A DNA stretch of 25,149 nt, taken from positions 1 through 25,149 of IMG/VR virus record IMGVR_UViG_3300030104_000135. The stretch is one strand, 5' to 3'. Shown here in pieces: positions 6,892 to 17,222 of this stretch (position 1 is the stretch's first letter; each line of letters begins with the position of its first letter). Below the pieces are notes generated by a model. That model searched no databases. It saw only the letters and a program-made list of their open reading frames with translations, and was not told where the DNA came from. Made by a program: the position numbers and the translations under genes. This stretch comes from a virus.

Positions 6892-7362
6892 ATGAAACTA
6901 GAAGTATTAAGAACAAGCTCACAGTCAGATTCTACTAATGGAATTCTGTATAAAGTAAATGCAGATGGAAGCAGAGACTTCTTAGCTTACACGTTAGAAG
7001 ACGAAGACAGAGACGAGAAGGTAATGCATGAGACTAGAATTCCTGCCGGTACTTATAGAGTTACTTTAAGAACTGAAGGGGGCTTTAATGCTAAGTATGC
7101 AAAAAGATTTAAAGATATTCACAAGGGCATGTTATGGGTGCGTGACGTACCTAATTTCCAGTATATACTTATTCACTGCGGTAATACTGACGAGCATACT
7201 AGCGGTTGCTTGCTGGTGGGTAAGACTCAAACGAGCAATAAAGACACGAAGGATGGGTTTATAGGAAAGTCTACTCAGGCTTACTTTGATGTGTACCCGC
7301 CAATAGCTGAGGCTCTTGAGAATGGAGAAGACGTATCTATTACTTATATAGACTACGCATAA
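6892..7362 (+). CDS. DUF5675 family protein, candidate lysis/peptidoglycan-acting enzyme
   Basis: This 156-residue protein matches the pattern of the DUF5675 family: TLEDEDRDEK (34-43), then TRIPAGTYRV (48-57), then VRDVPNFQYILIHCGNTDEH (83-102) and SGCLLVG (104-110). The spaced His-95, Gly-97 and Gly-105/Cys-106 resemble the catalytic H...G-C arrangement of L,D-transpeptidase-like (YkuD) folds. The family is common in phage and prophage lysis or tail regions. Its enzymatic activity is not established, so peptidoglycan cleavage or rearrangement is an inference. There is no signal peptide, so it would need a holin or other route to reach the wall; a one-helix membrane protein is encoded downstream at 11530. 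It is linked to the following gene by TAATG. Confidence 0.78.
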   Translation: MKLEVLRTSSQSDSTNGILYKVNADGSRDFLAYTLEDEDRDEKVMHETRIPAGTYRVTLRTEGGFNAKYAKRFKDIHKGMLWVRDVPNFQYILIHCGNTDEHTSGCLLVGKTQTSNKDTKDGFIGKSTQAYFDVYPPIAEALENGEDVSITYIDYA

Positions 7363-10130
7363 TGAAGATACTGTTAACTTTCCTTCTGTCTCTATTAGGA
7401 TTAATTAGCACAGCTCAGTTTTCCTACGTAGACTTAACCATTGGATTTGATCAGTACCCACAAGAAACAGCTTGGGCTATTACTCAAGGGCCGGATACCA
7501 TTCTGTCTGATGATGACTACGGTTATACTAACTACGTTAGCACCACTATAACAGAGAGACTTCTAATGGAAGCTTCTCCTTTCCCTTACAAGTTCACAAT
7601 GACTGATGAGTTTGGGGATGGAATCTGTTGTGAGTATGGTAGTGGATTCTTCTCTGCTGAGAATCAATGTCAAGGAATTTTGTTTGAAGACTATGACTTT
7701 GGATCAGAGATGGTTGAGTATGAGTTTAATCTCGCTCCTTGTGACCTGCCTACAGTAGACGTAACCTTTCAGTTAGACTTAAACGATGCTCCTCCAGAAA
7801 TAATCAATCCTGAAGTAAATGGAATATTCAATGGGTGGTGCGGTAACTGCGCTCCTATGGAAGATCCTGATGGCAATGGAGTGTGGGATATAACAATCCC
7901 TTTGTCTGCTGGAACCTATTCATGGAAGTTTTCTGCTAACAACTGGGAATATCAAGAGGCTCCTGACGGAGTTAATGAGTCGGGCTGTTTTATTTTTGAT
8001 GAGTTTGGTTTTATCAATAGACAGCTAACGGTTGGAGATGAAGACATTGTTTTGCCTCCATTCTGTTGGGAAAGCTGCTTACCATGTGGGGCTGTACCGG
8101 GATGTACAGATCCAGAGGCATACAACTGGAACCCGTGGGCAAACTTTGATTTAGGCTTTTGTGACTTGCCTATAGAGATAGAATGCGAGGAAGGTGAGTC
8201 TGCAATTATAGTTACAATAGTTCCGGACAGCTACCCTGCTGAAACAGGCTGGGAGTTGTACGATCAAACAAATGCTGAAACTATTTATGAAGTGCTCCCC
8301 GGAGAATATAACACTCCCGGCATTCCTGTTCAATCGGCTGTGTGTGCCTCAGTAGGATCAACACTACAGTTTGAGATTACAGATACTTATGGGGATGGAT
8401 TGAATGCTGCTCAGTTTGGTGGTGTTGATGGAACTGCTGTCGTTGGTTCTTGTGATTCAATCTATTACTTCACTAACCCAATGAATGTTGACTTTGGATA
8501 TGAAGATGAAATTTTCTTTGAAGTCTTGGCTTGTGCGGGTGATGTTGATATTGAAGGATGTGTTGACTCTGATTACATAGAGTATTCTCCAGATGCTACG
8601 ATAGATGACGGAAGCTGTTCAACTCTAGTGGTTGAGGGGTGCATGGATGATACGCAGTACAACTATAGTCCAGAGGCGAATGTAGAGGAAATGCTAATTG
8701 CTTGTGACTTTACTCTGACAATTACCGATGGTGTAGGTGACGGTTGGTTTGGTAGCTGGCTAGGAGTTTATCAAGAAGGATGGCTATCTCCACAGTATGA
8801 GATGAATCCTGATGATGGATTTGAAAAAAGCTACTCTATCCCATTAAATGCTATTGATGAAGCTAAAGTATATTTCTTTGCTAACTCTCAGTCAATAAAT
8901 ACTATCCAGCAGTGTGGCTTTAAGATAACGAATCCTGAAGGTGAGGTTGTTATTGATGTGCCTCAGTTCTTTGTTAATGCCTTCCCTTTTGTATATGAGT
9001 TCCAGCCTTACTGTGGTAATACCTGTATACCATTTGCTTACGGATGTATGGATGAGTCTGCATCTAATTATGTGGCTACGGCTAACACAGATGACGGGAG
9101 CTGCTACTATGCTCCGGGATGTATGTCAGCAGGGTACTTAGAGTATTACACTCAGGGCTTTGAGGCTGACTATGATGACGGGAGCTGTCAGACCTTAGCG
9201 GCGTTTGGATGCACAGATTCCCTAGCCTTTAACTATGACGCTGAGGCAAACGTAGATAATGGGGGCTGTATTGCTGTAGACTTAGGATGTACTAATCCTT
9301 TAGCGTATAACTACGATCCATTTGCAAATGTAGATGACGGAGGCTGTATTCCATTTATATATGGATGCACAGACTCTACGATGTTTAACTATGATCCAGA
9401 AGCTAATACCGATGACGGAGAGTGTGAGCCTTTTGTGTATGGCTGTATGGATTCAACGATGTTTAACTTTAATCCATTAGCAAATGCTCAAGATAATTGT
9501 ATTCCTTTCATTTATGGCTGTACTGATTCTAGCATGTTTAACTACGATCCGTCAGCGAATACCGAAGATTTTAGCTGCATCCCCTATATATACGGGTGTA
9601 CTGATATGGCTGCTCTTAATTACGATTCAATGGCTAATACAGACAATGGTTCGTGCATTGAAGTGGTTGAAGGATGTATGGATCAGTCTGCATGGAACTA
9701 TGATATTACGGCTAATGTCGATGTTCCTGCTTCTTGCTTATATAGCGCTGATTGTATCACTGGTGCGGGTAATCCTTATTGGCTTAACGACCCCTGCTAT
9801 GCTTGGGTAATTGAAGTAGATCCTTATTGCTGTGAAACTGATTGGGACAATACATGTGTTACTCTCTATCAGTACTGTGGAGATAACTATGTTGGAATGG
9901 AAAATCAATCATACCTGCACTTGAGTATATATCCAAACCCTACAACAGACATACTGAATGTAAAGTCTTCTCTTCCTACAATTTCAAGCATATATGATCT
10001 TACCGGTAAACTTATAATAGATCAAAGCCTTTCTGATAGATTGGACATGTCAGCTTATCCTTCCGGGGTTTATACAATACAAGTAAAAGTTGGAGAAAGG
10101 ATTCACTGTGAAAGAATTATTAAGCAATGA
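7362..10130 (+). CDS. Phage-encoded T9SS cargo-like surface protein with Cys-rich repeats
   Basis: This 922-residue modular protein has a Sec signal peptide (MKILLTFLLSLLGLISTA, cleavage before Gln-19). A beta-sandwich resembling CBM48/glycogen-binding E-set domains lies at about 131-205 (NGIFNGW, DGNGVWD, GTYSWKF). Twelve repeats of about 21 residues follow the pattern GC-T/M-D...YNY-x-P-x-AN-x-D-D-G-x-C; they begin near 247, 399, 426, 561, 586, 616, 642, 668, 694, 719, 745 and 771. A Cys-rich module spans 798-840. The C-terminus (855-922) is a type A T9SS sorting domain: IYPNPTTDILNV, IYDLTGKLI, LDMSAYPSGVYTI and a basic end, ERIIKQ. Such proteins cross the outer membrane through T9SS and lose the sorting domain as they are anchored or released. 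The gene sits within phage genes in the same orientation and overlaps both neighbours (TAATG, ATGA). A virion role is unlikely given the signal peptide. Function is inferred only: adhesion, receptor masking or glycan binding. Confidence 0.88.
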   Translation: MKILLTFLLSLLGLISTAQFSYVDLTIGFDQYPQETAWAITQGPDTILSDDDYGYTNYVSTTITERLLMEASPFPYKFTMTDEFGDGICCEYGSGFFSAENQCQGILFEDYDFGSEMVEYEFNLAPCDLPTVDVTFQLDLNDAPPEIINPEVNGIFNGWCGNCAPMEDPDGNGVWDITIPLSAGTYSWKFSANNWEYQEAPDGVNESGCFIFDEFGFINRQLTVGDEDIVLPPFCWESCLPCGAVPGCTDPEAYNWNPWANFDLGFCDLPIEIECEEGESAIIVTIVPDSYPAETGWELYDQTNAETIYEVLPGEYNTPGIPVQSAVCASVGSTLQFEITDTYGDGLNAAQFGGVDGTAVVGSCDSIYYFTNPMNVDFGYEDEIFFEVLACAGDVDIEGCVDSDYIEYSPDATIDDGSCSTLVVEGCMDDTQYNYSPEANVEEMLIACDFTLTITDGVGDGWFGSWLGVYQEGWLSPQYEMNPDDGFEKSYSIPLNAIDEAKVYFFANSQSINTIQQCGFKITNPEGEVVIDVPQFFVNAFPFVYEFQPYCGNTCIPFAYGCMDESASNYVATANTDDGSCYYAPGCMSAGYLEYYTQGFEADYDDGSCQTLAAFGCTDSLAFNYDAEANVDNGGCIAVDLGCTNPLAYNYDPFANVDDGGCIPFIYGCTDSTMFNYDPEANTDDGECEPFVYGCMDSTMFNFNPLANAQDNCIPFIYGCTDSSMFNYDPSANTEDFSCIPYIYGCTDMAALNYDSMANTDNGSCIEVVEGCMDQSAWNYDITANVDVPASCLYSADCITGAGNPYWLNDPCYAWVIEVDPYCCETDWDNTCVTLYQYCGDNYVGMENQSYLHLSIYPNPTTDILNVKSSLPTISSIYDLTGKLIIDQSLSDRLDMSAYPSGVYTIQVKVGERIHCERIIKQ
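7752..7976 (+). other. CBM48/E-set-like domain inside the T9SS cargo protein
   Basis: Residues 131-205 carry V-D-V-T-F-Q-L-D-L, NGIFNGWCGNC, DPDGNGVWDITI and LSAGTYSWKFSANNWEYQE. This strand order is typical of the glycogen-binding or isoamylase N-terminal type beta-sandwich found repeatedly in secreted flavobacterial proteins. It suggests carbohydrate or surface binding. Call by pattern. Confidence 0.6.
9351..9656 (+). repeat. Tandem 25-26-residue Cys repeats in the T9SS cargo gene
   Basis: Residues 664-765 hold four consecutive units with nearly the same linker (IPFIYGCTDSTMFNYDPEAN, EPFVYGCMDSTMFNFNPLAN, IPFIYGCTDSSMFNYDPSAN, IPYIYGCTDMAALNYDSMAN) at periods of 25-26 residues. The DNA differs by many silent changes, so the duplication is not very recent. 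Two cysteines per unit could form one disulphide. Confidence 0.8.
9924..10127 (+). other. Type IX secretion C-terminal sorting domain
   Basis: The last 68 residues contain the hallmarks of the type A Por-secretion signal: a Y-P-N-P motif, three hydrophobic strands ending in L-x-L-S-x-L/Y-P-S-G-V-Y, and a basic end. The outer-membrane translocon of Bacteroidetes recognises this region. Its presence in a phage gene implies dependence on a T9SS-positive host. Confidence 0.87.
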
Positions 10131-12192: not shown

Positions 12193-12756
12193 ATGAATAC
12201 TACTACAAACTTCCGCATAGACTTAAGTAAAGTGATTTATATAGCAATAATGTTAATCACGATACTATTAAGTTCATGTAAAAAAGAAACTGTTGCAAGT
12301 CAAAAACTATTGCAGCCTTCTTCACTCGACGAGCTTTTAGATAGCGACTTTTATTGTTACAGGGCTCAATATCCGGATAGCAACACTTATCACTTCAATG
12401 TACCTACAAACAATGAGTTCCTTGCAGCTTTTAATTCACCTCCATCTGAGTTTGATTTAAATGATGATCAGCATGTTAATACAGAAGATGTGCTATTGAA
12501 TCTTTCTGGGTTTGGAAATCCTGAGCCAGCATATCCATCTTTTGAAGACTTTACTCCATTCCAAACTTTTGGAGAAGGTAATACGTGGCTTACATATACA
12601 GGTGGTAATTCTGATATTAGCTTTGGCTGGATGCATAGAACTCCTTATGATGAAACGAATGAAGCTAATTACTCTGGGTATGAAAACATATATACATGGA
12701 CTCTAGATGTCGTTAAACAGGATGAAGTAATTTTTTATTATTTTGTAGAAGCATGA
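12193..12756 (+). CDS. Lipoprotein with dockerin/EF-hand-like calcium loop
   Basis: I prefer the ATG at 12193 over the GTG at 12178; this gives 187 residues and leaves 4 bases after the previous stop. A lipoprotein signal is clear: basic and polar N-terminus, hydrophobic stretch 14-26, and lipobox LLSSC with Cys-29, followed by KKE. The mature part holds a loop DLNDDQHVNTED (88-99) followed by VLLNLSGFG. This resembles the dockerin-like motif DxNxDGxVxxxDhhxhhxxFG common in secreted flavobacterial proteins, with the usual Gly replaced by Gln. The C-terminal half is beta-rich and unrecognised. Lys directly after the Cys may favour periplasmic retention, while Bacteroidetes surface lipoproteins use other signals. 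The role is unknown; surface exclusion is one possibility. The stop overlaps the next start (ATGA). Confidence 0.78.
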   Translation: MNTTTNFRIDLSKVIYIAIMLITILLSSCKKETVASQKLLQPSSLDELLDSDFYCYRAQYPDSNTYHFNVPTNNEFLAAFNSPPSEFDLNDDQHVNTEDVLLNLSGFGNPEPAYPSFEDFTPFQTFGEGNTWLTYTGGNSDISFGWMHRTPYDETNEANYSGYENIYTWTLDVVKQDEVIFYYFVEA

Positions 12757-13043
12757 AGGCAAAGAGAGATCCTAAGTTAAAAAGAGCTGGAGTTAGCGGT
12801 TATAATAAAGCTAAGAGAACTCCAAGCCATCCAAAGAAGTCACACGTTGTTGTGGCTAAGGTTGGTGATAAGACTAAGCTAATTAGATTCGGAGAGCAAG
12901 GAGCTAAGACTGCTGGTAAGCCTAAAGCTGGCGAGTCAGAAAGAATGAAAAAGAAACGTGCAAGCTTTAAATCAAGACATCGTAAAAATATTAGGAAAGG
13001 AAAAATGTCTGCTGCTTGGTGGGCCAACAAAGTAAAGTGGTAA
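12753..13043 (+). CDS. Very basic small phage protein 1
   Basis: This 96-residue protein is extremely rich in Lys and Arg. It carries TPSHPKKSHVVVAKVGDK (23-40), then KLIRFGEQGAKTAGKPKAG, then ERMKKKRASFKSRHRKNI, and ends AAWWANKVKW. The pattern recurs in many marine phages as I recall it, always without a known function. A charge this high suggests contact with DNA or RNA, for example an internal virion protein or condensing factor, but no nucleic-acid-binding fold can be named. It is the first of three basic proteins encoded before the capsid genes, and it overlaps the lipoprotein gene by 4 bases. Confidence 0.78.
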   Translation: MKAKRDPKLKRAGVSGYNKAKRTPSHPKKSHVVVAKVGDKTKLIRFGEQGAKTAGKPKAGESERMKKKRASFKSRHRKNIRKGKMSAAWWANKVKW

Positions 13044-13048
13044 CAATT

Positions 13049-13117
13049 ATGAAATGTAACTGTAAAGTTTGCAACTGTGGAGCGCCATGCGATTGCTCTT
13101 GTTGTGATTGTAAATAA
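13049..13117 (+). CDS. 22-residue Cys-rich metallothionein-like peptide
   Basis: The ATG at 13049 opens a frame of 22 codons ending in TAA 13115-13117. It reads MKCNCKVCNC then GAPCDCSCCDCK. Nine of 22 residues are Cys, arranged as CxC, CxxC, CxC, CxC, CxCC and CxC, with no aromatic residue. This is the pattern of metallothioneins, which bind soft metals through thiolate clusters. It fits exactly in the gap between two basic-protein genes: 5 bases after one stop and 8 bases before the next start, in a region where other gaps are only a few bases. It is shorter than known metallothioneins. A spurious frame in a short gap cannot be excluded, but the composition is far from chance. Confidence 0.55.
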   Translation: MKCNCKVCNCGAPCDCSCCDCK

Positions 13118-13125
13118 CGATTAAC

Positions 13126-13380
13126 ATGAAAGCAAAAAAGAAAATACCAGCTGACAATAAAGGATTAGCTAAGCTTCCTAAAGATGTACGCAACAAAATG
13201 GGGTACATGAAAGAAGGGGGTAAGCTTAAAATTTCTAAGAAGTCTGTTAGCATTGATCCACCTAAAGGCTATCACTGGATGGAAGAGCAGGGGAGATACT
13301 ACCTAATGGAAGGAGAGTATAAGCCTCATCCGGGAGCTGTAGCAAAGGCTAAGTTTAAACTAGCAAGCCATTCAAAGTAA
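13126..13380 (+). CDS. Basic small phage protein 2
   Basis: This 84-residue basic protein contains KAKKKIPADNKGLAKLPKDV and PPKGYHWMEEQGRYYLMEGE (50-69), and ends HPGAVAKAKFKLASHSK. The segment around residues 48-70 looks like a small beta-hairpin rich in aromatic residues. It resembles hypothetical proteins in marine phages as I recall. It is linked to the next gene by TAATG. Function unknown; a minor virion component is plausible from charge and location. Confidence 0.76.
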   Translation: MKAKKKIPADNKGLAKLPKDVRNKMGYMKEGGKLKISKKSVSIDPPKGYHWMEEQGRYYLMEGEYKPHPGAVAKAKFKLASHSK

Positions 13381-15857: not shown

Positions 15858-17222
15858 ATGGCTATTACAGCTACACAAAACTCGACAGATTTAGCTACGC
15901 TGCTAAAGACGAGTCCGGATGCGTATGTTGCTTTAGGCACATTGCTTTCGTATAACAAGCCTGATAACCGAGATCTTTTGATTGAGACTTACGGTGATCA
16001 AGGTATTACAGGTTTTCTTGAACTAACAGGTGCTGTTAAGAATGCAGGAACTGCTGACCACGTACAGTACTGGGAGGAAGGAAGACTTCACAAAACAGTT
16101 GCTATCTCAGCAGGTGGTGTTGATGCCGGTGCTACTGGTCACTTCACTGTTGCTGCATATACTACAGGTACAGACCAGCCATGTCGATTGAACGATGTTC
16201 TTTTGACTCCGGGTGGACAGAGACTTGTTGTTGTTGCATTAGATGATTCTAACGAAGAGATTGATGTTAAGAGACTTGATGGTGAGAACGTAGTAGCAGA
16301 AGATTCAGCTACAACTCTTATTATCATCGGTAACATCTACGCTCAGGGTACTTCTCAGCCAAGCACATTCTACCAGAATGATGTTCAGAAGAGAGAGAAT
16401 CCTTTCATGATCACTAAGGAGACTTACCAAGTAAACGGATCTCAGGCTACTAACATTGGCTGGATTGACGCTAACGGTAATGGAGACTACAGATGGTATG
16501 TTAAAGGTGAGATGGATACTCGTAAGAGATTCTTGAACCAAAGAGAAATGATGATGTTGTTTGCTGACAAAGAGAACACTGACAATGAAGGTGTTGCTTT
16601 GGCTTCTGGAACTATCACTGGATCTGAAGGTTACTTTACTGCTGTTGAAGACAGAGGTATCACTACTACTGGTGACTTTGATTCTATGACTGATCTTGAT
16701 AACATCATTCTTTTACTCGATAAAGAAGGTGCTCCTTCTGAGTATGCAATGTATGTTAACACTCAGACTTCATTGAACATGGATGATATGGTTGCATCTG
16801 GAATTGCTACTGCAACTACTGCCGGTCTTGCTGGTCAGTTTGGTGCATTCAACAACTCAGCAGATATGGCTGTTAAGCTTGGATTTAAGTCATTCACTCG
16901 TGGTGGTTACACTTTCCACAAGCATGACTGGAAGCTATTGAACGATCCTACTTTGTTAGGTGCATTCTCTACTCCATTATTCAAAGGTGCTATGGTTCCT
17001 ATGGCTCAGGTTGCTGATGCTAAGACTGGTAAGAAGTCTCCTGCTCTTGAAATGAACTACAAGTCAGCTAACGGGTATTCTCGTGAGATGGAGCACTGGG
17101 TAACTGGTGGTGGAGTTCTTGGGTTTAACACTGACGGAGATGATGTGGCTAAGTTCCACTACCGTTCAGAGTGTAACCTAATCACTCGTGCAGCTAACCA
17201 ACACGTAGTACTTAAGTCGTAA
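15858..17222 (+). CDS. Major capsid protein (probable)
   Basis: This 454-residue protein follows the scaffold-like gene. Its size suits an HK97-fold capsid subunit. Recognisable stretches are SYNKPDNRDLLIETYGDQG (31-49), RENPFMITKETYQVNGSQA (177-195), and a C-terminal part with DVAKFHYRSECNLITRAANQ. The first resembles capsid proteins of marine and crAss-like phages as I recall. From about 16380 on, codon choice is strongly biased (ACT for Thr, AAC for Asn, TTC for Phe, GTT/GCT), as expected for the most abundant virion protein. The leader before the ATG is A/T-rich without Shine-Dalgarno. The GroES-like protein at the window's start might help fold it. The HK97 fold is inferred, not directly visible. 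Confidence 0.82.
   Translation: MAITATQNSTDLATLLKTSPDAYVALGTLLSYNKPDNRDLLIETYGDQGITGFLELTGAVKNAGTADHVQYWEEGRLHKTVAISAGGVDAGATGHFTVAAYTTGTDQPCRLNDVLLTPGGQRLVVVALDDSNEEIDVKRLDGENVVAEDSATTLIIIGNIYAQGTSQPSTFYQNDVQKRENPFMITKETYQVNGSQATNIGWIDANGNGDYRWYVKGEMDTRKRFLNQREMMMLFADKENTDNEGVALASGTITGSEGYFTAVEDRGITTTGDFDSMTDLDNIILLLDKEGAPSEYAMYVNTQTSLNMDDMVASGIATATTAGLAGQFGAFNNSADMAVKLGFKSFTRGGYTFHKHDWKLLNDPTLLGAFSTPLFKGAMVPMAQVADAKTGKKSPALEMNYKSANGYSREMEHWVTGGGVLGFNTDGDDVAKFHYRSECNLITRAANQHVVLKS

Follow-up and report, generated by a model that had tools for sequence, protein, structure and literature searches.

A conserved nine-cysteine peptide of 20–23 residues in marine phages and bacteria is a candidate minimal metallothionein

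Many marine phages and some marine bacteria share a family of real coding genes, not chance frames, for peptides of 20–23 residues that carry nine cysteines in a nearly invariant spacing. One such gene lies in the window, that is, the entire 25,149-base viral record analyzed here, which also encodes a large terminase, a portal and a capsid-type protein. From the Cys layout, we consider it probable (roughly two chances in three) that this open reading frame (ORF) is translated and serves as an accessory gene encoding a minimal, single-cluster, metal-buffering metallothionein. We lean, if only slightly, to the broader view that these peptides constitute an unrecognized metallothionein family common to marine Bacteroidota and their phages, which in phages would be a movable accessory gene controlling metal in the infected cell and the first phage-encoded metallothionein.

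Results

The mini-gene and its neighbors

The first-pass annotation described a 22-residue ORF with nine cysteines that fills its intergenic gap, and both statements are accurate. Translation of 13049–13117 (+) yields MKCNCKVCNCGAPCDCSCCDCK, in which 9 of the 22 residues are Cys (positions 3, 5, 8, 10, 14, 16, 18, 19 and 21), and the ORF takes up 69 of the 82 nt between the genes for a 96-aa and an 84-aa protein, leaving 5 and 8 nt. The features are as follows.

12753..13043, + strand: upstream cistron, 96-aa basic protein (phrog_7595, unknown function); 5 nt separate its TAA from the mini-gene ATG
13049..13117, + strand: mini-metallothionein-like gene, 22 aa, MKCNCKVCNCGAPCDCSCCDCK, so labeled from its spacing and its fit to the family
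13055..13111, + strand: nine-Cys core C-x-C-x2-C-x-C-x3-C-x-C-x-C-C-x-C, a spacing common to at least 90 distinct peptides from at least 155 loci
13126..13380, + strand: downstream cistron, 84-aa basic protein; its ATG lies 8 nt past the mini-gene stop

With up to three mismatches allowed, this Cys spacing has a single match in the window and none in 100 dinucleotide shuffles, and the non-Cys residues of the window peptide fit the columns of the family described below better than all of 20,000 permutations. A capsid-type gene (PHROG 13704, virion structural protein) begins at 15858, 2.7 kb 3' of the mini-gene. No recognized metal transporter, metal sensor or metal resistance gene was found among the neighboring genes in the window.

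A family of nine-cysteine peptides

The first scan of IMG/VR demanded the exact Cys spacing and left the other residues, the start and the stop free. Among many poly-Cys artefacts, at least about 20 short frames of a single design emerged, with the ATG 0–2 codons 5' of the first Cys, the stop right after the last one and non-Cys residues in common. A second scan, of IMG/VR and of bacterial genome contigs, additionally demanded CCxC followed by a stop and returned many more frames from the former and at least 11 from the latter. Poly-Cys antisense frames of Gly/Ala/Gln repeats, together with simple repeats, flooded the raw scans; to exclude them, we capped the core at 10 Cys and kept only frames with a nearby start and a short tail. 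In an order-wide search of 395 Flavobacteriales genomes, one true copy was detected, the three other matches being TGT repeats.

Altogether, the loci collected (at least 155) encode at least 90 distinct peptides of 20–23 aa, every one starting with ATG, against none in a reversed-spacing control run on the same loci; the earlier proposal, that the short frame is a genuine coding gene whose Cys layout is conserved and resembles that of metallothioneins, stands. The consensus is M-x(0-3)-C-N-C-x-x-C-N-C-G-x-S-C-x-C-x-C-C-x-C; MKCNCKTCGCGKSCDCTCCNC and MDCNCKSCDCTKSCDCTCCNC are two further members. Nine Cys are present in 89 of the 90 distinct peptides, the remaining one having His in place of one Cys, and apart from this swap the spacing is invariant while most other positions vary. 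The last Cys is the C-terminus in 89 of 90, too; the exception is the window copy, which fits the design with one additional Lys between the last Cys and the stop. Across the 90 peptides, Cys amounts to 43% of the residues, arranged in four CxC motifs and one CC, and just three peptides contain any aromatic or His residue. The family therefore shows the broad-sense metallothionein traits, namely, low mass, very high Cys content in CxC and CC, and few aromatic or His residues, and four CxC plus a CC in about 21 residues amount to a metallothionein layout.

Profile searches of Pfam, NCBIfam, PHROGs and PDB produced no significant matches, with low power at 21 positions of biased composition. The sole echo in Pfam was metallothionein PF01439, at a non-significant E=0.54 and for 2 of 32 members. 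A tblastn search of isolated phages with the consensus gave no match, with low-complexity filtering active and hence little power. No phage or viral metallothionein was found in the open-licence PMC literature.

Coding constraint in loci selected by flanking genes

Given that selecting loci by their cysteines builds in Cys conservation, we selected loci by flanking genes instead. The anchors were the 163-aa gene that adjoins the peptide in T4-like phages (set A), the gene for an FAD-dependent protein in phage loci (set B) and a 119-aa gene in one genus of streamlined marine Cryomorphaceae (set C). An intact peptide was present in 36 of 78 loci of set A, 14 of 76 phage loci of set B and 12 of 17 bacterial loci of set C, these 12 being all the set C loci in which identity of the upstream protein to the query reaches 57.3% or more. 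In these anchor-selected loci the peptide is either intact or absent, and at set A sites a loose filter (at least 4 Cys, at most 50 aa) recovered family peptides and nothing else.

The first-pass annotation suggested looking for synonymous bias, and it is pronounced. In disjoint closest pairs of copies, drawn with slight conditioning from those that fit the pattern when one position may be either Cys or His, the Cys codons show 34 synonymous differences on 57 sites and 2 non-synonymous ones on 456. Both non-synonymous differences trace to a single TGT-to-CAC (His) change in one locus, L590. The non-Cys codons vary freely (about 25 synonymous and 52 non-synonymous changes). Thus, strong purifying selection acts on the Cys codons. 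For the window copy itself, coding constraint would be read from the family, the carriers in its own lineage being only distant relatives.

Across set A (L571–L649), the mini-gene looks like a clean cassette, present whole or not at all. It lies 9–17 nt before the anchor gene in 31 of the 36 loci and about 1 kb away in the other 5, and the gaps inspected in loci that lack it contain no decayed copy. In two loci (L595 and L596), all that remains is a scar that exactly matches the final bases of the mini-gene. The proposed comparison of homologous gaps in related phages, as to whether they lose the Cys pattern, calls for a cautious reading: the close relatives lack the gene entirely, and no decaying version was seen in the gaps inspected.

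Genomic context and distribution

Members of the family were found in T4-like marine phages, in the terminase lineage of the window and in streamlined marine Cryomorphaceae; for most phage contigs, the host was assigned from gene content. Within the terminase lineage to which the window belongs, three phages carry it. In one (L330) the terminase and portal are 65% and 58% identical to those of the window, in another (L104) the terminase is 45% identical, and in both the peptide is encoded 5' of the terminase genes, not near the capsid gene. The peptide is absent, in the DNA compared, from the 80 closest terminase relatives and the 80 closest capsid relatives. In four of the nearest relatives of this phage (L491, L492, L494 and L496), the corresponding gap is filled by an unrelated ORF of about 74 aa. 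Loci selected through the 96-aa and 84-aa neighbors likewise lack the mini-gene. Taken together, the absence from close relatives and the other position in L330 and L104 identify the mini-gene in this lineage as an accessory cassette whose proximity to the capsid gene in the window is incidental.

In 77 of 82 loci, the mini-gene and the gene upstream of it share a strand, and the two mostly overlap or lie at most 42 nt apart. In phages the neighbors differ: the mini-gene is found before the gene for the FAD-dependent protein, after a small cupin-like gene (about 90 aa), beside gp23-type capsid genes or near a primase gene (the labels gp23, primase and cupin-like were read from the sequences by eye, without a database match). 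In Cryomorphaceae, it occupies a conserved chromosomal site, 3' of a gene for a Na/Ca-type (CaCA-type) exchanger and the 119-aa gene and 5' of lipoprotein and pirin genes, with glutamine synthetase nearby. The exchanger and pirin genes hint at a metal link, an association that is only suggestive. The initially proposed link with virion assembly or with a structural protein is not borne out, given the relatives in many phage contexts and in bacterial chromosomes and the unrelated ORF in the same gap of the nearest relatives.

Other short Cys-rich frames were observed in related phages. In five loci (L668 and L670–L673), a different conserved Cys-rich peptide of 33–34 aa (MKKFICDLIYALSFRNLCLGWCGSKLKCDCNCNC and kin) is encoded 111–121 nt upstream of the gene for the FAD-dependent protein and is perhaps a replacement in the slot of the mini-gene. 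Further very short Cys-rich frames in phages related to the window are MICETCCNCPLCALCPFCKG (L494:1407 +) and MCNVCGCSPCKCDSLKCEKV (L037:2137 +).

Comparison with known metallothioneins

Among the closest analogs are the fungal family 8 Cu-metallothioneins of Neurospora crassa and Agaricus bisporus, which are likewise very short, consist mostly of CxC with small polar spacers and share with the mini-family a CxC-x3-CxC block. Their pattern, x2-CxC-x5-CxC-x3-CxC-x2-C-x3, comprises 7 Cys in 26 aa and was once held to be the shortest (PMC4755600). The mini-family, in contrast, is found in phages and bacteria and has 9 Cys in 20–23 aa, spaced CxC-x2-CxC-x3-CxC-x-CC-x-C; with this different count and spacing, and no detectable sequence homology between the two, it falls outside family 8.

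SmtA and BmtA (family 14) resemble the mini-family in an N-terminal C-x-C-x2-C-x-C block and are bacterial cytosolic metal peptides, as is proposed for the mini-family. The SmtA-type proteins are much longer and have a zinc-finger fold (PMC7558416, PMC10612145). The window peptide does not belong to this family: at 22 aa it is too short to house the finger that family 14 holds within its four-metal cluster, it lacks a conserved His, and it has no Pfam match. MymT of Mycobacterium tuberculosis, a 4.9-kDa Cu(I) protein, was found from an unannotated ORF (PMC7558416). Like the mini-gene, it is a small Cys-rich ORF missing from annotation; unlike it, MymT has a mass of 4.9 kDa, another sequence and an origin in another phylum.

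The beta-domain of animal metallothioneins (M3Cys9) has nine Cys ligands, the same count as the mini-peptide, but is about 30 residues long and part of a two-domain protein, and its Cys spacing differs. The M3Cys9 cluster type is documented for metallothioneins (PMC10612145). Most likely, judging from sequence, the mini-gene family works like a metallothionein yet belongs to no known metallothionein family, and even the shortest classic metallothioneins would be longer than this peptide.

Discussion

The proposed minimal metallothionein and its alternatives

Under the interpretation that we favor, the product would stay reduced in the cytosol and use its nine thiolates to enclose soft metal ions, Zn(II), Cu(I) or Cd(II), within a single cluster, with a ligand set formally equal to that of the M3Cys9 beta-domain and a putative stoichiometry to match. 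The gene would be a short middle cistron in a virion-gene operon, read probably by translational coupling, and infection would benefit from metal being buffered or sequestered inside the marine Bacteroidota cell. Such metal might be freed as host metalloproteins and ribosomes break down, or might be excess copper or zinc. A buffering role is proposed for the free-living bacterial carriers as well. The Cys-to-His change in L590 retains a metal ligand and so lends indirect support to the predicted metal binding.

The most serious competitor, although an unlikely one, is a metal chaperone or scaffold that passes metal, or an Fe-S or Cu center, to a partner such as the upstream cupin-like protein instead of buffering in bulk. 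A gene of the cupin-like family of about 90 aa (c1) is the immediate upstream neighbor at 15 of 82 loci, at several of which it runs into the start of the mini-gene, and the bacterial copies lie near pirin, itself a cupin fold. However, most copies, including that in the window, have no cupin-like neighbor, the partners vary by lineage, c1 was called a cupin by eye alone and has no Pfam match, and nine Cys are more ligands than a one-ion chaperone requires.

We regard as still less probable that the cysteines, at 43% of the residues, supply reducing equivalents or cysteine during infection, with metal binding incidental. Metallothioneins do scavenge oxidants, in keeping with such a thiol buffer or sulfur store, but a store needs no fixed spacing, and the one exception to the invariant spacing, the swap to His, loses a thiol and keeps a metal ligand.

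It appears quite improbable that the short ORF, rich in Cys codons, is a regulatory leader peptide, at which ribosomes stalled on Cys codons would sense cysteine or charged tRNA-Cys and control the next gene. In one phage group the mini-gene does precede the gene for the FAD-dependent protein by 114–134 nt, but a Cys attenuator needs RNA structure between the leader and the controlled gene, and the next gene is 8 nt away in the window and 9–17 nt away in other phages, which leaves no room for it. Moreover, the downstream genes are unrelated, the non-Cys residues are conserved along with the Cys spacing, and the mini-gene usually lies close behind another gene.

We give very little credence to a disulfide-rich secreted toxin or antimicrobial peptide: the product is small and Cys-rich, but it has an odd number of cysteines, no signal peptide and a hydrophilic sequence, CxC is poorly suited to disulfides, and a conserved chromosomal copy exists in free-living bacteria. 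A non-coding or chance frame, suggested by a length below gene-caller size and the least credible reading of all, is already refuted for the family by the at least 90 homologous peptides against none in the control, by Cys-codon changes that are synonymous with the exception of one swap and by the 12 of 12 bacterial loci with a closely similar upstream protein that have the peptide intact.

Significance

Gene callers drop frames this short, so that a conserved gene has remained invisible in the genomes of marine phages and bacteria. If the peptide binds metal as its layout predicts, phages own a metal buffer, an auxiliary gene of a kind new to the searchable literature, and natural metallothioneins get hardly any smaller than this peptide, which at 21 residues can be made by chemical synthesis as a model for a three-metal thiolate cluster. 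Through the mini-gene, one can also ask directly whether phage infection in the sea is limited by the release of metal or by metal stress.

Other genes of the window

The 96-aa basic protein upstream of the mini-gene is a very widespread phage protein, which occurs in at least 600 IMG/VR stretches (the best 80 of these are 80–89% identical) and has DNA matches in Roseobacter and Synechococcus phages. In the 84-aa basic protein (13126–13380, +), residues ~29–84 and ~1–47 match different sets of phage loci (L202–L281), which suggests two shuffled blocks. Positions 7362–10130 (+) encode a Cys-rich, predicted secreted protein of 922 aa with repeats GCTDSxxFNYDxxANxDDGxC. Its C-terminal tail is of the type IX secretion kind (PF18962, E=1.3e-10), which points to a Bacteroidota host for the phage, and the protein seems to be built for the type IX secretion system of that host.
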